From positions 62,001 to 126,000 of the forward strand of contig NZ_JAACFS010000001.1 of NCBI RefSeq assembly GCF_029051645.1: DNA of 64,000 nucleotides, in the 5' to 3' direction. A program made the position numbers and the translations under genes. Under the pieces are notes generated by a model, which had not been told where the DNA came from, made no database searches, and saw only the letters and a list, made by a program, of their open reading frames with translations. Positions within the stretch are counted from its first letter, which is position 1. Every line of letters begins with the position of its first letter. Of this stretch, positions 51,674-63,381 are shown piece by piece. Source of the stretch: Bradyrhizobium sp. CSA112. GTDB lineage: Bacteria; Pseudomonadota; Alphaproteobacteria; Rhizobiales; Xanthobacteraceae.

Positions 51674-52447
51674 ATGCCGGAGCTGTGCCTCCCGATCCGG
51701 ACCACCGGGCTTCGGTCACTCCCGGTCCTTATGCTGCTGGTGGCAAGCACCGCGCTCGGCGGCTGCAGCGGCGGCGATTTCGGCCGCACCCGTGCGGATA
51801 TGCGCAACGACGACATGCACCGCTGGCTGGGTGCCGAGGCCACGGCCAGCGTCGGCCTCAAGCCCTCGCACTTCCAGCTTACCGAAAACGAGCGCCAGCT
51901 TCGCGATCTCGCCTATCCCCTGATCGAGCCGCCGCACTCGCGCCCGGCCTGGAAGAGCGTGTTCGGCGATTACCAGCCGTTGCCCTCGCCGTGGCGGCAG
52001 AAGGTGGTGTTCGACCGCACCACCTATGGACGCGCTTTGATCGACGAGCCGCACCGCTCGCACACCTCGCGTTATCAGCAGTTGATCGAGGACGTCCGCA
52101 ACGACATCACGAGGTTCGAGCCGTTCTTTGCCTCCGCTACGAGCGTCATCGAGCTCGACCGCAAGCGCAGCGCCAGCCTGAAGATGGTCTCGGAACTGTC
52201 GCCGGCCGAGCAGGCCGATGCGATCGCCCGCATGGAAGAGAACACGCTGATCGTGCAATGGGTCCAGCAATGCCTGGAGCGGCGCATTTCATCGTACCGC
52301 TGGGCGCTGGAGCGGCTGGTGATTCACGCGCCCGACGGTATCGCATCCGACGCCGACCGCCTGATCGGCGAACTCGCCGCGCAAACCGCCAACCCGCCGG
52401 TCGCCGCCCAGCCGGTGATCGGGCGTGCGGTGACGGTGAAGGGGTAG
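51674..52447 (+). CDS. Conserved lipoprotein
   Basis: 257 residues from the ATG at 51674. Signal and lipobox: VLMLLVASTALGGCSGG, Cys about residue 27. The mature part is helical (HFQLTENERQLRDLAYPLIE, ALERLVIHAPDGI). The last 36 codons (52341-52447) recur in a diverged copy at 56874-56980. Function unknown; likely an outer membrane component conserved in Bradyrhizobium-like bacteria. Confidence 0.75.
   Translation: MPELCLPIRTTGLRSLPVLMLLVASTALGGCSGGDFGRTRADMRNDDMHRWLGAEATASVGLKPSHFQLTENERQLRDLAYPLIEPPHSRPAWKSVFGDYQPLPSPWRQKVVFDRTTYGRALIDEPHRSHTSRYQQLIEDVRNDITRFEPFFASATSVIELDRKRSASLKMVSELSPAEQADAIARMEENTLIVQWVQQCLERRISSYRWALERLVIHAPDGIASDADRLIGELAAQTANPPVAAQPVIGRAVTVKG
52341..52447 (+). repeat. 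Direct repeat, left copy (end of the lipoprotein gene)
   Basis: 107 bases ending in the lipoprotein stop codon. It aligns without gaps to 56874-56980 with about ten to eleven differences. Those in the last 32 codons are all synonymous, so the copies are homologous coding ends, not simple slippage. It marks the left edge of the sulfatase cassette. Confidence 0.8.
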
Positions 52448-52951
52448 AGGCGTGGACTCATTAGCACGCAGCGAAATGGCCAGCGGTGGCGCCGGAATGT
52501 TCTGAATTTACTTCGGCTTTCTTGAGCGGACCGGAAGTCGGTAGTCCTGCCAAACCGGACGTGAATCACCCATCTCGGACTTGATAGGGTCCTTGATAGG
52601 GTCCTTATGTGCCTGCGCGGTCGATCTCAGAAATTGCACCGCCAATGTCAGCCGGTTCACACTTACCCGCACGTTTCGTCCCACGCCCACAGATTGCAAA
52701 GATCACCGACGTGAAGTTTGTGCCACCGCCTAATGGAACGGAAGCCTAACCCGGATGTCCGCCCGTCAATAAAGCGGGGCAGAAGCGGCTCCGCTAAATT
52801 TCTGCGTGTCGAGGCTGCATTGCAGCAATTCTTCAGGCGCGCGCCAAAAACGTCATTCAGGTGCCAAACCCGGAACTTACAACCACAGGACGGCGTTACC
52901 GCTGGCTTGTCGGCCTCATTTCCATATCTGTACTGCGTTGGGAGAAGAGCT
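52448..52951. other. Intergenic region before the AraC regulator
   Basis: 504 bases with no strong gene. A 12-base unit TTGATAGGGTCC is repeated in tandem at 52581-52604. The region is likely the upstream control region of the araC-type gene and the scar of integration next to the lipoprotein gene. Confidence 0.45.
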
Positions 52952-54076: not shown

Positions 54077-55090
54077 ATGGTGTGCACCGAGCACGCCACT
54101 ATCATGGCCGCGTCCGGATTCCGCGAAGGGATGATCTGGATCCCCGGTGGTACGTTCCGCATGGGCTCGGACAAGCATTATCCGGAAGAGGCGCCTGTTC
54201 ATCGCGTCACCGTGGACGGCTTTTTTATCGATCGGACGCCCGTCACCAACCGGCAGTTCAAGGCATTCGTTCGTGCGACCGGATATGTCACGCTGGCCGA
54301 GATCCCGCCCGATCCGACGCAATATCCCGGCGCGCTGCCGCACATGCTGTTTGCCGGCTCGCTGGTGTTCACACCACCCAAACACGCGGTCGACCTCCGC
54401 GACTGGTCACAGTGGTGGGACTTCACCAGGAATGCGGACTGGCGTCATCCCTATGGACGCAAGAGCAACATCAACGCGCTCGACAACCATCCTGTCGTGC
54501 ATGTCAGCCATGACGATGCAGCCGCCTATGCCAAATGGGCGGGCAAGGAGTTGCCGACGGAAGCCGAATGGGAATTCGCCGCGCGTGCCGGACTGGACGG
54601 CGCCGAATATGCCTGGGGCGACGAACTGATGCCCGGCGGCCGCCACATGGCCAATACCTGGCAAGGCAATTTCCCGTACCAGAACCTGAACGAGGACGGT
54701 TTTCCGCGCACCTCGCCGGTGACGGCGTTTCAGCCGAACGCCTACGGCGTCTACGACATGATCGGCAATGTCTGGGAATGGACGAACGACTGGTATTCGC
54801 CGAAGCACCAGGCGGAAGCGCCGAAGGCGTGCTGCATTCCCGAGAACCCTCGCGGCGGCCCCGAGGCCGCGAGCTATGACCCCAGCCAACCCACGATCAG
54901 GATTCCGCGAAAGGTCATCAAAGGCGGCTCGCATCTGTGCGCGCCGAACTACTGCCGTCGCTACCGGCCGGCTGCGCGCCATGCGCACCCGGTCGATACG
55001 TCCACGAGCCACATCGGATTCCGCTGTGTGGTGCGTGGAAGCCGACCTGCTGGAACAGAAACCAAGAACGGGAGAATTGATGATGAGTGA
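54077..55090 (+). CDS. Formylglycine-generating enzyme (SUMF1/FGE family)
   Basis: 337 residues; GAGGAG upstream of the ATG. Domain signature: GMIWIPGGTFRMGSD, VHVSHDDAAAYAKWAGKELP, EWEFAARAGL, YDMIGNVWEWTNDWY and the copper-site GGSHLCAPNYCRRYR with Cys288 and Cys293, five apart as in human SUMF1. It oxidises the sulfatase active-site Cys to formylglycine with O2. Overlaps the sulfatase gene. Confidence 0.92.
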   Translation: MVCTEHATIMAASGFREGMIWIPGGTFRMGSDKHYPEEAPVHRVTVDGFFIDRTPVTNRQFKAFVRATGYVTLAEIPPDPTQYPGALPHMLFAGSLVFTPPKHAVDLRDWSQWWDFTRNADWRHPYGRKSNINALDNHPVVHVSHDDAAAYAKWAGKELPTEAEWEFAARAGLDGAEYAWGDELMPGGRHMANTWQGNFPYQNLNEDGFPRTSPVTAFQPNAYGVYDMIGNVWEWTNDWYSPKHQAEAPKACCIPENPRGGPEAASYDPSQPTIRIPRKVIKGGSHLCAPNYCRRYRPAARHAHPVDTSTSHIGFRCVVRGSRPAGTETKNGRIDDE

Positions 55091-56726
55091 CCAGTCCAAG
55101 AGTTCAACACCGGACCAGGCGACGGATTCGTCCAGTCAACTTGACCGCCGCAACCTGCTGCTTGCCGGTACCGCACTCGTGGCGGCCTCGGCAGTCGGCT
55201 CGACCGCCGCAGTCCAGACGGCTCAGGCCCAGCAACAGCCGGCCGCGACTGGCGGCCGTCCGCCAAACGTCCTGGTGATCTGGGGCGACGACATCGGCAT
55301 CTGGAACATCAGCCACAACAACCGCGGCATGATGGGCTACATGACTCCGAACATCGACCGGATCGCCCGCGAGGGCATATCCTTCACCGACTACTACGGA
55401 CAGCAATCCTGCACGGCCGGCCGGGCTGCTTTCATCGGCGGCAACGTGCCGGTCCGCACCGGCATGACCAAGGTCGGCCTGCCTGGCGCCAAGGAAGGCT
55501 GGCAGAAGACAGACGTGACGATGGCAACCGTCATGAAGAGCCGGGGCTACGCGACCGGCCAGTTCGGCAAGAACCATCAGGGCGACCGCGACGAGCACCT
55601 GCCGACCCAGCATGGTTTCGATGAGTTCCTCGGCAATCTCTACCACCTGAACGCGGAAGAGGAGCCGGAAAACCGGGATTACCCGAAAGATCCGGAATTC
55701 CGGAAGAAGTTCGGTCCGCGCGGCGTCATCAAGGCTTCGGCGGACGGCAAAATCGAAGACACGGGCCCGCTCACCCGCAAGCGGATGGAAACGATTGATG
55801 ACGAGACGGTGGCGGCCGCCAGTGACTTCATCCAGCGTCAACATCGCGCCAACAGGCCTTTCTTCTGCTGGTGGAACGCCACCCGGATGCACTTCCGCAC
55901 GCATGTGAGGAAGGAGCACGAAGGGTTGTCGGGACCGAACGGCAACGAGTACCAGGACGGAATGGTCGAACACGACATGCATGTCGGCCAGTTGCTCAAG
56001 CTGATCGACGATCTCGGCATCGCCAACAACACGATCGTGTTCTACTCCACCGACAACGGACCTCACTTCAACAGCTGGCCGGATGCCGGAACGACCCTGT
56101 TCCGCAGCGAGAAGAACTCGAACTGGGAGGGCGCGTACCGCGTACCGGCGTTCGTGCGATGGCCGGGCAATTTCCCGGCCAACACGACGCTGACCGGCAT
56201 CGTCTCGCACGAGGACTGGCTGCCGACGTTCGCCGCTGCAGCCGGCGATCCCAACATCAAGGACAAGCTGCTGCAGGGCGTCGAGTTGAACGGCCGCAAG
56301 TATCGCAACTACATCGATGGCTACAACATGCTGGATTACCTTACCGGCAAGGCGAAGGAATCGCCGCGCAAGGAGTTCATGTACGTCAACGACGACGGCC
56401 AGGTCGTGGCGATCCGTTACGACGCCTGGAAGGCTGTATTTCTGGAGAACAGGGGCCAGGCATTCGAGGTCTGGCGAGAGCCATTCGTCGAACTCCGGGT
56501 CCCCCTGCTCTTCAACCTGCGGCGCGATCCGTTCGAACGCGCCCAGCACAACTCGAACACCTACAATGACTGGTTCATCTCCCGGGTCTTCGTCATTGTG
56601 CCGCTACAGACCATGGCCGGCAAATTCCTGATGTCCATGAAGGACTATCCGCCGAGCCAGTCGCCGGGCTCGTTCAATCTGGAGAAAATCCAGAAGCAAA
56701 TTGCTGCTGCCAGCAGCGGTGGCTGA
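55080..56726 (+). CDS. Tat-exported Cys-type sulfatase (arylsulfatase family)
   Basis: 548 residues, with ATG at 55080 overlapping the FGE stop. Tat signal DRRNLLLAGTALVAASA is near residue 22. Sulfatase motif SCTAGRAAFIGG with Cys111 (CTAGR) is the formylglycine site; other marks are VLVIWGDDIGIWNISHNNRG and YRVPAFVRWPGNF. It hydrolyses sulfate esters in the periplasm; the substrate is unknown. Coupled with the FGE gene, so the maturation pair is complete. The open frame extends upstream without signal features. Confidence 0.92.
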   Translation: MMSDQSKSSTPDQATDSSSQLDRRNLLLAGTALVAASAVGSTAAVQTAQAQQQPAATGGRPPNVLVIWGDDIGIWNISHNNRGMMGYMTPNIDRIAREGISFTDYYGQQSCTAGRAAFIGGNVPVRTGMTKVGLPGAKEGWQKTDVTMATVMKSRGYATGQFGKNHQGDRDEHLPTQHGFDEFLGNLYHLNAEEEPENRDYPKDPEFRKKFGPRGVIKASADGKIEDTGPLTRKRMETIDDETVAAASDFIQRQHRANRPFFCWWNATRMHFRTHVRKEHEGLSGPNGNEYQDGMVEHDMHVGQLLKLIDDLGIANNTIVFYSTDNGPHFNSWPDAGTTLFRSEKNSNWEGAYRVPAFVRWPGNFPANTTLTGIVSHEDWLPTFAAAAGDPNIKDKLLQGVELNGRKYRNYIDGYNMLDYLTGKAKESPRKEFMYVNDDGQVVAIRYDAWKAVFLENRGQAFEVWREPFVELRVPLLFNLRRDPFERAQHNSNTYNDWFISRVFVIVPLQTMAGKFLMSMKDYPPSQSPGSFNLEKIQKQIAAASSGG

Positions 56727-56784: not shown

Positions 56785-57120
56785 ATGAAGCGTCGCAAAA
56801 TTTCTGCCTTGGCCAGGAATTTCGTCGTCGCCACCGTCGTGGCGGCGATGTGCCTGCCCGCCCGCGCGCAGAATCGCCGCCGATGCGGACCGCCTGATCG
56901 GCGAACTCGCCGCGCAAACCGCCAACCCGCCAGTTGCGGCCCAGCCCGTGATCGGGCGCGCCGTGACGGTGAAGGGGTAGACCAACGCGTTACTCATAAA
57001 TCTGAAAAGAGCCATGTACATGGCGATGTCGGGATTCCGCTCAGAAGCGGACATCTGGGCAGGTCTTCAGCGAGTCTGCTATGTGGCCAAGAGGCGACAT
57101 GGCATCGCATCTGCAAATGA
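56785..57120 (+). pseudogene. Secreted protein gene truncated at the cassette edge
   Basis: An ATG at 56785 with GGAG upstream reads MKRRKISALARNFVVATVV, a signal peptide ending AMCLPARAQ. Directly after it (about 56873) the DNA becomes the repeated lipoprotein end in another frame, and the frame runs on to 57120 as nonsense. The gene is thus cut after about 29 codons; its product was probably a periplasmic partner of the sulfatase. Confidence 0.75.
56874..56980 (+). repeat. Direct repeat, right copy of lipoprotein gene end
   Basis: 107 bases matching 52341-52447, ending GTGAAGGGGTAG-like (stop at 56978). The differences fall at third codon positions (for example CCG/CCA, GTC/GTT, GCC/GCG). 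It is the right edge of the sulfatase cassette and fuses to the truncated signal peptide gene. Confidence 0.8.
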
Positions 57121-57151: not shown

Positions 57152-57434
57152 CCCATACTGGAGCTTACTTGGGCCGTCTTTGTACGCAGATGGCGGGATA
57201 CATCCAGAACGCGGAGACGCCCCCGAGACCGCGTAGACCGCCCCGGCTTCGAGCCGCCGCTATGAGAAACAGGATTCTGCTCAACCAAAAGCGGCTATGT
57301 GTCGATTTCGTTCATGAAGATGAATGGGAACTCGATGGGACGGTTCGCATCTTAACGCACATGCAACCCTTGCGCGCCGGATTTGCCGAGCGCACACTTG
57401 CCACCTCAAGCAGAACTTACGGAGGATGCAGACC
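57152..57434. other. Region between terminator hairpin and Cys-rich gene
   Basis: 283 bases. It contains frames with low-quality composition, such as CRAHTCHLKQ, and a GGAGG ribosome binding site at its end. Presumed promoter and leader of the Cys-rich peptide gene. No operator recognised. Confidence 0.4.
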
Positions 57435-57866
57435 ATGCCACGGGTCAAGCAAGCTTCGAAGCAGAAACGCACAACCAAAGCCGCCGCCGTGACGGTGCTG
57501 GGTGCCACCGGACTGGGTTTTTCGCTGCTGGATAGCGCATCAGCATCCACGATGCCCGCTGCTGATATCGCGCAATCTGACAATACCTCGCCCAATCAGC
57601 GTTTCGTTCTTAGCGAAGAGGAAATGGCCGACGTCAGTCTCGCCACGTTCCATCTCCTCGATAAGGAAAACGTTGGCAGCGGCGTGCAGCTAGCCGCCCG
57701 CGGTGGCTGCCGTGGCTGCGCGGCCCGTGGCTGCCGTGGCTGCGCGGCCCGTGGCTGCCGTGGCTGCGCAGTCCGTGGCTGCCGTGGCTGCGCGGTCCGT
57801 GGCTGCGCGGTCGGTTGCGCGGCCGGCAGCTGTTGCGCATCTTGGGGATATTGCCGCGTGTGCTAA
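57435..57866 (+). CDS. Cys-repeat peptide, RiPP-like precursor candidate
   Basis: 143 residues from the ATG at 57435, GGAGG upstream. Basic N-terminus (MPRVKQASKQKRTTK), a hydrophobic signal-like stretch (AAAVTVLGATGLGFSLLD) and a conserved-looking leader RFVLSEEEMADVSLATFHLL precede a core from residue 91: four repeats of the eight-residue type CRGCAARG/CRGCAVRG, then CAVGCAAGSCCASWGYCRVC. There are 14 Cys in the last 52 residues. Leader plus repetitive Cys/Gly core suggests a modified peptide (RiPP) or metal-binding exported peptide. No maturase is adjacent. Confidence 0.7.
   Translation: MPRVKQASKQKRTTKAAAVTVLGATGLGFSLLDSASASTMPAADIAQSDNTSPNQRFVLSEEEMADVSLATFHLLDKENVGSGVQLAARGGCRGCAARGCRGCAARGCRGCAVRGCRGCAVRGCAVGCAAGSCCASWGYCRVC
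57705..57800 (+). repeat. 24-bp tandem repeat encoding the Cys motif
   Basis: Four 24-base units starting GGCTGCCGTGGCTGCGC encode the Gly-Cys-Arg-Gly-Cys-Ala core units in frame. Differences between units are few (GCC/GTC, GCG/GCA). A fifth partial unit follows at 57801. It shows the core grew by tandem duplication. Confidence 0.85.
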
Positions 57867-58109
57867 GTCCCACGACCTAACGGCCCGACGCTGAGAAAAT
57901 TGCATCCAACGAGCTCAATAGCCGATTTTCCCAAGGTCGCCTTCGGGTCAAAACGCGAAGTCCGGGCGGCCTTGCTCCACGTCCGCTCTAACCCAAGCAA
58001 GCAGACGTCGACGGGGGCGCTGCCTGCGTCACATTGTCGTCGCTCCCCTCGTCCTTGCCAAACAGCACCTGCCACCACCATCCGACCAGCGCAGCGTGCG
58101 TGCGGACCT

Positions 58110-58712
58110 CTATGCTGCCAGAAATGGTATCTCGACCGCCAGTGTATAGCCGTTGACCATCAGCAGACCACCCGCGGCACCGACGATGCCGCCGACGATC
58201 GCAAGCCAGGGCAGCGTCGCGACGATCGAGACCGAGATCAGCACGATGGCGATCTGCAGAAGCGCTTCGGCATAGTCGAAGTAGGGATCCTGCTTCAGCG
58301 CATGGTCGCGCCTGCTCTCGTAGTCCTTGGCCCGCGCCATCAATTCCTTCTTGCCCTCCTGCGTCTCGGGCTCGGACTCGTAGCGTGCCGCCGTCTTGCG
58401 ATAGGCCTCCGCTTTTGCCTTCAGGGCGGTCCTGGCCTCGGCGTTGAGGCTTCCGTCCTGCAGGAACGCCAGTTCGATCGCGTCGGCCGCGAGGTTGTAG
58501 TCGGTCTGGCGGATGTTCTTGGCCTGGTAGAAGGCATAGTGGTTCGCGGCATAGATGTTGTTGTTGGTCGCCTCCTTGCCGGCGTTGGCGCCGCCAAGCC
58601 CGGTGATGGCCAGCAGCATCGCCAGAATGGCGATGCTGACCGCCGCTCGCTGCTTGAAGCGGTCGTTCGCCTTCTCCTGATCCATCATGTCGGCGGCGTC
58701 TTCGGCTTTCAT
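58110..58712 (-). CDS. DUF4337-family membrane protein
   Basis: 200 residues from the ATG at 58712 with GAGGAGGAG upstream. One span near the N-terminus (VSIAILAMLLAITGLGG), a long helical region with FYQAKNIRQTDYNLAADAIE and LKAKAEAYRKTAARYESEP, and two C-terminal spans (ALLQIAIVLISVSIVA, VGGIVGAAGGLLMVNGY). This is the DUF4337 layout. Function unknown. Confidence 0.82.
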   Translation of the reverse strand: MKAEDAADMMDQEKANDRFKQRAAVSIAILAMLLAITGLGGANAGKEATNNNIYAANHYAFYQAKNIRQTDYNLAADAIELAFLQDGSLNAEARTALKAKAEAYRKTAARYESEPETQEGKKELMARAKDYESRRDHALKQDPYFDYAEALLQIAIVLISVSIVATLPWLAIVGGIVGAAGGLLMVNGYTLAVEIPFLAA

Positions 58713-59243
58713 CGATCGGCTCCTCCTCGCTCCTAAAGGGCAGGCACCATAAACAACGGCGTTATGTCACCATCGCGACGCACGAGCATATTGATTTGTT
58801 CCGCAGAATGCTGCAGGCGCGATCGGTCATACGAAGGGATCGGCAATTCCCATGCAGCGATCAGGGTTTACGCAAACGTTCGGATGCTTGAGTTCAAGCG
58901 TCCGAGGAACGGCGCGCCTTTACGGGAGAGAAGTCGGCCAATATGAGGTCGAAACAGGCCAGCCACAAGGCCAATACAAACGGTCCGCTCCGGGTCCGAA
59001 AGCGGACGTCGTTTCAGAAGTTCATAGGCTTAAGAATGACCTGCCTCACTAGTACCGCTGCACAGAGATTGTGACAGGTCTGCGCGGTTGCCTTTTGATG
59101 AATTCCCTCGCGCTCGAGCGTTAACACCATCGTTCACTACCTGAAGATCCCGGTGAAGCTGGCGAGTTGAGGCGCCGGCGCGGCAGCCGGACTGAAACTC
59201 CCGCGGCACCTTGGCCGTACTTGTGCGCTGGGAGGATCAAATC
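58713..59243. other. Intergenic region with IS-end-like sequence
   Basis: 531 bases with no strong gene. At 59050 the sequence CTAGTACCGCTGCACAG is almost identical to the edge of the IS630 remnant at 60472 (CTAGTACCGCTGCACGG), both in the same orientation. The region upstream of the DUF1624 gene therefore looks like the scar of an older element. No complete transposase here. Confidence 0.5.
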
Positions 59244-60473
59244 ATGAATGCGAGCCTCGAAGCCGGGCAACGGGGAGGCCTGTCCTGGACCGGCCAAGCG
59301 AGGAAAGGAATCGCCGGGCAGACGGCGGCGCGCACGCGCATCGATTCCGTCGACCTCGTGCGCGGCCTCGTGATGGTATTGATGGCCCTCGACCATGTGC
59401 GCGATTTCTTCGCCCCGGGTGGATTCAACCCGCGCGACGTGACCGATCCCGCGCTGTTCATGACGCGCTGGATCACGCATTTCTGTGCACCCGCCTTCGT
59501 CTTTCTCGCAGGTGTGTCGGCATTCCTCTACGGTGAGCGTGGCCGTAGCACGCGGCAGCTCAGCCGCTTCCTGCTCACGCGCGGGATTTGGCTCGTACTG
59601 ATCGAGCTCACGCTCGTCCGCCTTGCATGGACCTTCAGCTTCGATCTCGGCTACTTCTTCAGCCAGGTCATCTTCGCTATCGGCGCGTCGATGATTGCGC
59701 TCTCAGTACTGGTCTTTCTACCGCGCAGTGCTGTCGCGACCATCGCGCTCGTCTTGATCGCCTGGCACAATCTACTCGATCCCATCAAGGCAGAGGCCTT
59801 TGGCCCGGCCGCGGCAATCTGGAATTTCCTGCATGAGCCGGCCTTGCTGCAGTTCGGCGCCACCGTGAAGTGGTTCGCGGTCTACCCGTTGATCCCGTGG
59901 ATCGGCGTGATGGCGGCGGGCTACGCGTTCGGTCCGGTCTTCACGCTCGATCATGCGAAGCGGACGCGCCGGCTCGTTGGATGGGGCACCGTCGCTGTGG
60001 TCGGTTTCATCCCGCTGCGGGCGAGCAACGTCTACGGCGACCCCGCGCCCTGGAGTGTTCAAGCCGGTGCAATTGCGACGTTGCTGTCCTTCATCAACTG
60101 CGAAAAATATCCGCCATCGCTGCTGTATCTGGCCATGACGATGGGGCCGACATTGCTGCTGCTTGCTGCGGTTGAGAACGCGCGCGGCCGCTTCGCGGCG
60201 TGGGTCACCACCTTCGGCCGCGTTCCATTCTTCTATTATGTGATTCATGTTTTTGTCATCCACGCGCTCGCCGTGATCTTCGCGTGGGTGAGCGGTGCGG
60301 AGACCGGCTGGCTGTTTGGTCCATTCCCTGCCGACAAGCCGAACGGATACGGCGTCGGCCTCCTGGGCGTCCTTTCCGTCTGGCTTGCGGTTGTGGCGGC
60401 GCTCTATCCGCTTTGTAACTGGTTTGCCGGCATCAAAAAACGTCGCAGCGACTGGTGGCTATCCTACCTCTAG
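59244..60473 (+). CDS. DUF1624-type (heparan acetyltransferase-like) membrane protein
   Basis: 409 residues from the ATG at 59244 with GGGAGG upstream. The start of the fold IDSVDLVRGLVMVLMALDHV and DFFAPGGFNP, with about 9-10 spans, match DUF1624 proteins related to heparan-alpha-glucosaminide N-acetyltransferase. It may acetylate a sugar from acetyl-CoA across the membrane. Its stop (TAG) is part of the CTAGTACCGC IS-end sequence, so the C-terminus may have been altered by insertion. The IS630 remnant follows directly. Confidence 0.8.
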   Translation: MNASLEAGQRGGLSWTGQARKGIAGQTAARTRIDSVDLVRGLVMVLMALDHVRDFFAPGGFNPRDVTDPALFMTRWITHFCAPAFVFLAGVSAFLYGERGRSTRQLSRFLLTRGIWLVLIELTLVRLAWTFSFDLGYFFSQVIFAIGASMIALSVLVFLPRSAVATIALVLIAWHNLLDPIKAEAFGPAAAIWNFLHEPALLQFGATVKWFAVYPLIPWIGVMAAGYAFGPVFTLDHAKRTRRLVGWGTVAVVGFIPLRASNVYGDPAPWSVQAGAIATLLSFINCEKYPPSLLYLAMTMGPTLLLLAAVENARGRFAAWVTTFGRVPFFYYVIHVFVIHALAVIFAWVSGAETGWLFGPFPADKPNGYGVGLLGVLSVWLAVVAALYPLCNWFAGIKKRRSDWWLSYL

Positions 60474-60720: not shown

Positions 60721-61193
60721 CTGCAACCAAATGATCAATAACCTCTGTATATCCTTGAGGCCAGCCAGCACCCTGTTGACGTCCTGGCAATTACACCGGG
60801 CCGCAGCTTCGCGTCAGTACCGGACATCCCGCCCAGTAGCGCCAGACAACCGCTCGCCATCCATTTCGGGCGATCAATTCGCTGGGGGGAATGACCGCTT
60901 TGGTTCAAAGTCGGAAGTTGGCTCGCTTGAACGGCATGTCCGCTCTGCCCCTAACAGCGGACCTCATCAGACCGACCCGGGTGGTCCGGTTCGTGCCAAT
61001 AAGCGACGTAGTAGGTTTATGCGAAAGATCGTCTGACAATCGGCCGTCGAACTGTTAGGTGCGCGAACGGAACGTCAGATGCACACTTCCACCATATTTC
61101 AGCATTTAACGCCTGTATCCACGAGCGAATCGAACCCTTGAGCACCAACAAGCTGCGTGGCATTGTGACCCTCAAGGTCCAGGCCGGAGCAAC
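60721..61193. other. Remnant-rich region before the radical SAM gene
   Basis: 473 bases with no strong gene. It contains a 95-base dispersed repeat at 60905-60999 and frames with low-complexity junk translation (FGSKSEVGSLERHVRS). The rSAM gene has its own GGAG at 61183. Confidence 0.5.
60905..60999. repeat. 95-bp dispersed repeat, copy 1
   Basis: Starts TCAAAGTCGGAAGTTGGCTC and ends GGTTCGTGCCAA. It matches 63287-63381 without gaps at 93 of 95 bases. A related, more diverged stretch is at about 57945-58010. The translation style (FGSKSEVGSLERHVRS) is common in Bradyrhizobium intergenic repeats. Confidence 0.85.
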
Positions 61194-62810
61194 ATGACGA
61201 TTCCCTGCCGCGTCCTAATGATCTATCCGAAGTTCGTCCCGGACTCGTTCTGGAACTATACGGAAGCTTGCGAACTGGTCGGCGCGAAGTATCCGGCGGC
61301 GCCACTCGGCCTGATCACCGTCGCTGCCATGCTGCCGAAGCATTGGGACATCCGTCTCGTCAACCGTAACACCGAGCCTTTGACGGACGCGGACCTCGAC
61401 TGGGCCGATCTCGTGATGATCGGCGGCATGCTCAACCAGCAGCCTGATTTCATCTACCTGATCGATCTCGCCCACCTGCACGGCAAGCCAGTATGCGTCG
61501 GTGGACCTGACGTGTCCTCCAGCCCGCATCTTTACGCGGACGCGGACTTCCAGGTGATCGGCGAGGCCGAGCAAATCATCGAGCAATTCATCGCCGCCTG
61601 GGAAAGCGGCGAGCGCAAGGGCGTGTTCATCGCCGAGAAATTCAAGATCGACGTCACGCTAAGCCCGATGCCCCGCTACGATCTGATCAAGTTCGATCAC
61701 TATCTCTTCATCGGCGTGCAATATTCGCGTGGCTGCCCGTTCACCTGCGAGTTCTGCGATATTATCGAGCTGTATGGTCGCGTGCCGCGCACCAAGACCA
61801 ACGATCAGATTCTCGCCGAGCTGCAAGCACTCTACGATCACGGTTATCGCGGGCATGTCGATTTTGTCGACGACAATTTCATCGGCAACAAGAAAAACCT
61901 TCGCACGCTACTACCGCGGCTCAAGGCCTGGCTGGAAGAGCGCGACTATCCGTTCGAGTTCTCGACCGAAGCCTCGATCAATATCGCGGACGATAGCGAG
62001 CTGTTGCAGGCAATGAAGGACGCGAACTTCTTCGGGATTTTCGTCGGCATCGAGAGCCCGGATCCAGAGACGCTCGTGCAGATGAAGAAGAAGCAGAACA
62101 CCAGGCGCAACATCGCCGAGTGCATTCATAAGATCTATGGCTACGGCATGTTCGTCACCGCGGGTTTCATCGTCGGGTTCGATACCGAGAAAGTCTCGAT
62201 GGGGCAGGCGATGATCGACTTCATCGAGGAGGCGAACGTTCCAGTCTGCATGGTTGGACTGCTCTATGCGCTGCCTGGTACACAGCTGACGCGGCGGCTA
62301 GCCAAGGAAGGTCGCCTGCACAACGGCCATGACCTCATGAAGGTCGAGCAGGCGGGCGACCAATGCACGCTCGGCTGCAATTTCGACACCAAGCGTCCGC
62401 TTCGTGACATCCTTGCGGATTACAAGGCCGTGCTCGGTCACGTGTTCAGCCCGACGGCATATGCAGGACGGCTGTCGCGGCTTGCCGTCATGCTCGACCG
62501 GTCCGACCGGCGCCGCGACCTGCCGGATGGCGACATGCGCAAGAGGCTTGGCGGCATCGACAGCGTGCACAAGATCATGCGCGCCCTGCCGGAGGTTTGC
62601 GAGCCGTTCTGGAAGACCTTCGTCGAGGTCGCCAAGACCAATCCACGCGCGCTGCGTTACATTGTGATGCTGATGGCGCTGTACCTGCACCTCGGGCCGT
62701 TCTCGAAGCGCGTGATCAGTGAGATTGACCGCCGGATTGCCGAGCTGGACGGTATGCCTCCGGTGAGGGCCACGGGGGTTAAGCAGACGCTACCGCCAGC
62801 GACGGTGTAG
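61194..62810 (+). CDS. B12-binding domain radical SAM protein (DUF4070-type C-terminus)
   Basis: 538 residues. An N-terminal cobalamin-binding-type domain (VLMIYPKFVPDSFWNYTEAC, VCVGGPDVSSSPHLY) precedes the radical SAM motif GCPFTCEFCDI with Cys181, Cys185 and Cys188. Following VDFVDDNFIGNKKNLRTLLP and TAGFIVGFDTEK are standard for this family; the last 130 residues match DUF4070. Such enzymes methylate or rearrange unactivated carbons in lipids or peptides. The substrate here is unknown. Its 3' end overlaps an acyltransferase remnant on the other strand. Confidence 0.88.
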   Translation: MTIPCRVLMIYPKFVPDSFWNYTEACELVGAKYPAAPLGLITVAAMLPKHWDIRLVNRNTEPLTDADLDWADLVMIGGMLNQQPDFIYLIDLAHLHGKPVCVGGPDVSSSPHLYADADFQVIGEAEQIIEQFIAAWESGERKGVFIAEKFKIDVTLSPMPRYDLIKFDHYLFIGVQYSRGCPFTCEFCDIIELYGRVPRTKTNDQILAELQALYDHGYRGHVDFVDDNFIGNKKNLRTLLPRLKAWLEERDYPFEFSTEASINIADDSELLQAMKDANFFGIFVGIESPDPETLVQMKKKQNTRRNIAECIHKIYGYGMFVTAGFIVGFDTEKVSMGQAMIDFIEEANVPVCMVGLLYALPGTQLTRRLAKEGRLHNGHDLMKVEQAGDQCTLGCNFDTKRPLRDILADYKAVLGHVFSPTAYAGRLSRLAVMLDRSDRRRDLPDGDMRKRLGGIDSVHKIMRALPEVCEPFWKTFVEVAKTNPRALRYIVMLMALYLHLGPFSKRVISEIDRRIAELDGMPPVRATGVKQTLPPATV

Positions 62811-63219: not shown

Positions 63220-63286
63220 CCAGATCACTATAGCAACAGGACACTCCTAACAGGAAGTGGCCGTCCGACCAGATGTCTGCTTGGGG

Positions 63287-63381
63287 TCAAAGTCGGAAGT
63301 TGGCTCGCTTGAACGGCATGTCCGTTCTACCCCTAACAGCGGACCTCATCAGACCGACCCGGGTGGTCCGGTTCGTGCCAA
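63287..63381. repeat. 95-bp dispersed repeat, copy 2
   Basis: 93 of 95 bases equal to 60905-60999, same orientation; the two differences are at the CCGCTCTGCC / CCGTTCTACC segment. It lies between the small membrane gene and the DUF1127 gene. The two copies bracket the radical SAM gene, so recombination between them would delete it. Confidence 0.85.

Follow-up and report, generated by a model that had tools for sequence, protein, structure and literature searches.

What is a small cysteine-rich peptide gene doing in the 64,000-nucleotide stretch of Bradyrhizobium sp. CSA112 DNA analysed here (called the window throughout, at its full length), where no maturase gene adjoins it, and which enzymes, if any, act on its product? 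An earlier reading, made from the sequence alone, had taken the peptide for a modified natural product (RiPP) precursor, a thiol-rich metal trap or an envelope protein, and had pointed to a B12-type radical SAM gene downstream as a possible partner. The reading frame runs from an ATG at 57435 to a TAA at 57864–57866 and encodes 143 amino acids; its ribosome-binding region is kept as GGAGGATGC(A)GACC in most members of the family described below. Three features remarked upon in the sequence-only reading hold good: hydrophobicity is maximal at residues 16–32 (Kyte-Doolittle mean 1.78 over 17 residues), a signal-like stretch that is followed by an ASA motif; all 14 cysteines lie within the last 52 residues; and there are four eight-residue units (two CRGCAARG and two CRGCAVRG, starting at residues 92, 100, 108 and 116) within a tandem repeat with a period of 24 bp, 5.0 copies and 91% matches. 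Searches of Pfam and NCBIfam with the protein gave no match up to E = 1, and no nitrile hydratase- or Nif11-like leader (NHLP/Nif11, proteusin-type) was found by them; a search of the leader against PDB chains, aimed at PatE, gave none even at E = 10. The AlphaFold model of the precursor is of low confidence (mean pLDDT 45), and a scan for promoter and terminator found none on the plus strand of the conserved cassette around the gene. The features discussed here are collected in Table 1.

Table 1. Features of the window and of the partner cluster on contig C108 (L031 coordinates are those of the cluster locus)
Feature	Position	Strand	Basis or location
Conserved cassette around the gene, the sole stretch in common with its closest relatives	57243..57935	+	
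Shine-Dalgarno sequence GGAGG, 9 bases ahead of the ATG	57421..57425	+	sequence
Probable detached (orphan) TOMM precursor gene, 143 aa	57435..57866	+	ORF, RBS, family alignment, genus-wide relatives
Residues 1-38, signal-peptide-like (Lys/Arg-rich start, hydrophobic stretch, ASA motif), kept in relatives	57435..57548	+	
Residues 59-72, LSEEEMADVSLATF, presumed cyclodehydratase recognition element, with L(X)4M (residues 59-64)	57609..57650	+	
Residues 88-143, presumed core, 14 Cys	57696..57863	+	
24-bp tandem repeat coding for CRGCA(A/V)RG units	57703..57824	+	Tandem Repeats Finder
C-terminal motif CCASWGYCRVC	57831..57863	+	family alignment
DUF4337 gene, between peptide and radical SAM genes	58110-58712	minus	
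HGSNAT_cat (formerly DUF1624) protein gene, between peptide and radical SAM genes	59211-60473		
B12-binding radical SAM gene, 3.3 kb downstream, same strand	61194-62810	+	
Tandem VOC-domain protein (Rv0577-like), divergent from the clustered precursor	L031:8696-9658 = G000:C108:448198-449157	minus	
Paralogous precursor heading the cluster	L031:9812-10312		own genome, contig C108
748-aa fused TOMM cyclodehydratase (RRE, E1-like, YcaO), downstream of the paralogue	L031:10565-12811		
485-aa ThcOx/SagB-type dehydrogenase, after the cyclodehydratase	L031:12824-14281		

The genome has a second copy of the gene, 62% identical, on contig C108, and relatives occur throughout the genus, the best with an E-value of 1e-75. 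A scan of the named genomes yielded 100 relatives, and the neighbourhood work used the best 80 of them. The record titles of these best 80 of 100 name Bradyrhizobium with a single exception (L130), which is titled Frankia sp. RB7; this locus has a Bradyrhizobium-type cluster and a near-identical leader and groups with Bradyrhizobium on the leader tree, and the record is probably misnamed or contaminated. More distant relatives are present in other families of the same order, and also in Methylovirgula.

The copy on C108 heads a complete cluster (Table 1). Its fused cyclodehydratase scores 307 bits against PF02624 and 145.8 bits against TIGR03882 (cut-off 36.9), falls narrowly below the TIGR03604 cut-off (218.7 versus 219.25 bits), and aligns over its full length, RRE and Cys pairs included, with LynD (4v1t, E 4e-141) and TruD; in an AlphaFold model of low confidence, built with 11 sequences (mean pLDDT 43), solely the N-terminal pattern of strands and helices at residues 16–95 looks RRE-like. 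The dehydrogenase scores 182.2 bits against TIGR03605 (cut-off 78.4) and aligns with CyaGox (5lq4, E 2e-51). Both enzymes are encoded directly downstream of the precursor in 46 of the 80 loci (tblastn; best 80 of 100 relatives), two more loci group with these clustered copies but end at a contig edge, and neither enzyme is present at the other 32 (a few of them with short flanks; L055 and L058 end less than 600 bases downstream), which together with the window make 33 copies that we call detached. When genes around the best 80 of 100 relatives were clustered, three families besides the precursor proved to be widely shared, namely YcaO, SagB and VOC, and no transporter was linked to the cluster. 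No cyclodehydratase or dehydrogenase of the C108 type was found by tblastn anywhere in the 64-kb window, in agreement with the earlier statement that no maturase is adjacent; since the same genome carries a complete cluster on C108, the window gene is a candidate for an extra, detached substrate. The examination of homologues' neighbourhoods proposed in the sequence-only reading thus found modifying enzymes, and among the maturase families named there YcaO/TOMM was the right class, although the enzyme lies on another contig and not nearby. MNIO/DUF692, also named, fared less well: the precursor has no Pfam match, and the bufferin arrangement of a DUF2282-type precursor beside a DUF692 enzyme is not seen in the Pfam search or among the shared neighbourhood families. 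The window's B12-binding radical SAM gene likewise has no homologue in the relatives' neighbourhoods. Besides the C108 enzyme the genome encodes two further YcaO proteins (contigs C11 and C129). That on C11 (L137, 160-2637) is a second TOMM-like cyclodehydratase of 825 amino acids, beside a gene for an FAD-dependent oxidoreductase-like protein, and divergent fused cyclodehydratases with 35–38% identity, which probably represent another TOMM system, are found in Bradyrhizobium at G359:C1:4138073, G467:C11:82292, G390:C1:6584429 and G379:C3:2941.

The homologues share both leader and core, which supports the reading of the peptide as a RiPP precursor. Nearly all have the Lys/Arg-rich, hydrophobic, signal-like N-terminus, and nearly all have a leader motif of the form [LF][GSDN][ED]EE[MIL]xD[VI]SLATF; 81 of 81 members have the motif, including the L(X)4[LIM] element. 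In the family the spacing is that of L59 and M/I/L64, the second position being M in all detached copies and I, L or M in clustered ones. The C-terminus is shared as ..CCASWGxCRxC, with WGxCRxC in 78 of the 81 members (48/48 non-detached and 30/33 detached). Three detached copies (L007, L018 and L056) have a GNTSG(F/Y)GGGQASQSGGQPQ tail in place of this end. Between the leader and the end motif the Cys core varies in length and spacing among members, with 21–28% Cys and little Ser or Thr, and all 81 Bradyrhizobium-type members are free of Cys up to residue 80. The window core has Ala or Val between its cysteines, where the clustered cores have mostly Gly.

Precursor and enzyme follow one another closely across the genus. 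The precursor is present in 107 of 249 Bradyrhizobium genomes, all 107 of which encode the cyclodehydratase (at least 69% identity over the aligned length), and the 142 precursor-less genomes contain one, a fragment in an incomplete genome (Fisher p 3e-71 over the 249 genomes, uncorrected for ancestry). The VOC protein (E <= 1e-60) is found in exactly the same 107 genomes and in none of the 142 others. This co-occurrence partly reflects ancestry common within one genus. Clustered genes travel together, so the informative cases are the 32 of 249 genomes with two to eight precursors, every one of which has the cyclodehydratase, and the rearranged Methylovirgula locus, in which the VOC gene again adjoins those of the enzymes, convergent with the dehydrogenase gene, and an unlisted precursor of the family lies upstream of the cyclodehydratase. 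VOC relatives are also present where there is no cluster, for example in Sinorhizobium, so this family is wider than its role here.

The 33 detached copies fall into a single clade (SH-aLRT 98) adjoining two clustered copies on a tree of the leaders, which was built from 89 columns with a short search and has many unresolved forks; this suggests that detachment may have arisen once and then spread. Window-type copies (seven genes, about 87–93% identical in DNA to that of the window) share a cassette of about 0.6–0.7 kb alone, and their flanks beyond it are unrelated to those of the window. At a gene identity of at least 85%, flanks are shared by 0 of 47 detached pairs and 66 of 124 clustered pairs (the pairs are not independent). 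One relative is carried by a conjugative plasmid of Bradyrhizobium, with IS elements around it. The cassette ends on its 3' side (57935) almost where the synteny of the DUF4337 module does (57945). Other genomes have the right-hand module without the gene (synteny to 57945), but their left flank differs, so a clean empty site or target duplication was not found; no terminal repeats of the cassette were recognised. A weak intergenic match (67%) connects positions 57936–58009, a stretch that begins exactly at the cassette's 3' end, with 63275–63347, and similar short frames are also present near 60900. Pairwise counts among the seven window-type genes give a dN/dS of 0.29 overall and of 0.14 for the core (whose repeats align less reliably), low values which indicate that the reading frame behaves as a working protein gene. 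From its genus-wide relatives and this purifying selection, the window gene is real, and more than a chance frame or a repeat.

Taken together, these observations make it very probable that the window gene encodes the precursor of a linear azol(in)e-containing (TOMM) RiPP that is separated from its enzymes and modified in trans, and it is from the co-occurrence that we infer the latter. In LynD-type enzymes it is the RRE domain that recognises the leader, by way of an L(X)4L element (PMC12455567). The RRE domain of the C108 cyclodehydratase would similarly bind the detached peptide at its L(X)4[LIM] element, the enzyme would turn cysteines of the CRGCA(A/V)RG core into thiazolines, and the dehydrogenase would oxidise these to thiazoles. 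Because no transporter is linked, the signal-like N-terminus may serve for export, and a protease might cut near the VQLA/A site; a TOMM leader does not usually begin in this way, which might indicate that export precedes modification. Bleomycin-resistance proteins of the VOC fold bind a thiazole compound, and the VOC protein may be an immunity protein of the binding type or a tailoring enzyme. We would guess that the product is probably antibacterial, like other Gly/Cys-rich TOMMs.

A detached paralogue might have ceased to be heterocyclised and acquired a new job, as a thiol-rich peptide that is exported to bind metal or to act as a redox buffer. Such a change would be in keeping with the signal-like N-terminus, the 14 cysteines, the lack of an enzyme nearby and an AAR/AVR spacing that differs from the GG/RG spacing of the clustered cores, but a free exported peptide would have no need of the leader motif, which is kept in 33 of 33 detached copies. 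The enzyme is moreover present in every genome that bears a detached copy, and 30 of the 33 have the WGxCRxC end in common with the clustered copies, and we consider a changed role improbable. The metal-trap and envelope-protein readings first offered are in general less likely, given that cysteine is what the partner enzymes use up. That the window gene is instead a decaying, functionless copy is very unlikely: its scattered positions and unrelated flanks might be so explained, one relative (L030) is a fragment and some (L056, L058) have lost the C-terminal motif, but the dN/dS values given above, changes of length that are in-frame, and a ribosome-binding site and frame that are intact in the window-type copies (L055 is cut off by the end of its contig) are not those of decay. 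It is a little more doubtful still that the peptide is the substrate of one of the other two YcaO proteins of its own genome; one of these is a TOMM-like cyclodehydratase, but it is the C108-type enzyme whose distribution in the genus follows that of the precursor family, and the clustered substrate of that enzyme has the same leader. The suspected link to the B12-binding radical SAM gene has next to no chance of being right: its position 3.3 kb downstream and the DUF1624 protein between are as first described, and same strand and distance speak for it and nothing else, but the gene is absent from all related loci examined, those of the closest relatives among them, the intervening genes include one on the opposite strand, and the enzyme does not reach the cut-off of any curated NCBIfam model of peptide-modifying enzymes.

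Upstream in the window, a formylglycine-generating-enzyme-like gene (FGE, 54077-55090) was considered as the peptide's Cys-modifying enzyme and rejected, as the peptide has no CxPxR/CxAxR and the adjacent arylsulfatase has CTAGR; the two genes (54077-56726) form an ordinary pair of maturase and substrate that has nothing to do with the peptide. A direct partial duplication (52271-52448 and 56805-56981, 77% identical) of the last part of an upstream gene frames the block of regulator, FGE and sulfatase, which looks like an inserted or duplicated segment.

If the detached genes are TOMM precursors, as we believe, a broader picture can be sketched, in which our confidence is appreciably less than even. 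One four-part cluster (VOC, precursor, LynD-like and ThcOx-like genes) would be a hub that processes up to eight precursors; the spokes would be cassettes of about 0.7 kb with their own upstream region, mobile within genomes and onto a conjugative plasmid; a built-in signal would replace the transporter; and the VOC protein would neutralise or tailor the product. With the TOMM reading, what was an isolated Cys-rich frame becomes a substrate that can be tested with a defined pair of enzymes. This reading also means that mining around YcaO genes misses many precursors, as extra copies are present in 32 of 249 genomes, up to eight per genome. The VOC protein, whose presence matches that of the precursor exactly, may be an immunity factor, and in nodule bacteria dispersed, varying families of thiazole peptides would be candidates for a part in competition between strains.

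According to the passage of PMC2674419 that cites them, Lee et al. had recognised a CRG-repeat precursor of the thiazole (TOMM) type in Bradyrhizobium (japonicum), so the clustered form is already known, as a prediction. The text of a TOMM survey (PMC4603692) does not include Bradyrhizobium, and distant precursors were left unannotated there. In the literature searched, which covered few subscription journals, we found no description of the detached clade, of the VOC partner or of the exporter-less cluster, nor of any VOC-fold protein as part of a TOMM system.

As in TOMM systems generally, there are a YcaO cyclodehydratase, a SagB-type dehydrogenase and a precursor with a conserved leader and Cys-rich core; adjacency to the enzymes is found for the paralogue and 46 of 80 relatives (the best 80 of 100), but not for the window copy. 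Both Bradyrhizobium enzymes are related in sequence to the cyanobactin enzymes LynD/TruD and CyaGox/ThcOx, the cyclodehydratase over its full length, and in both systems the leader has an L(X)4L-type element for the RRE domain (PMC12455567). Unlike cyanobactin systems, the Bradyrhizobium system has no gene for a PatA/PatG-type protease or macrocyclase among the shared neighbourhood families, its leader is long and signal-like, and its Gly/Cys/Arg repeat core has no short cassettes or repeated flanking recognition sequences. Phazolicin (also rhizobial) and klebsazolicin likewise come from LAP clusters of precursor, YcaO cyclodehydratase and dehydrogenase (PMC6783444), but theirs encode C and D as separate proteins, together with an efflux pump of their own, whereas the Bradyrhizobium enzyme is fused and no transporter is linked; the precursors have no family-level match to one another. 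The proteusin cyclodehydratase MprC acts through an L(X)4L element on ten MprE precursors (PMC12455567), a parallel for one enzyme with many substrates, although the NHLP leader there has a folded helical bundle and the window protein has no such domain in Pfam or NCBIfam. A precedent for the separation is heterocycloanthracin (Haft 2009; PMC2674419), whose precursor lies far from the enzymes and is present if and only if they are in the genome; since it too breaks the rule, adjacency of the enzymes is usual but not required. The two differ in several respects: heterocycloanthracin is a Bacillus system with a truncated, F-protein-dependent cyclodehydratase, whereas the C108 enzyme is full length relative to LynD, RRE included; the leaders are unrelated, and the window protein has no NCBIfam match, TIGR03601 included; no VOC partner has been described for it; and the distant Bradyrhizobium copies are extra to a clustered one. 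In both, nevertheless, a TOMM precursor with Cys-Xaa-Xaa repeats lies far from the maturation operon (PMC2674419), and one cassette may serve several precursors.
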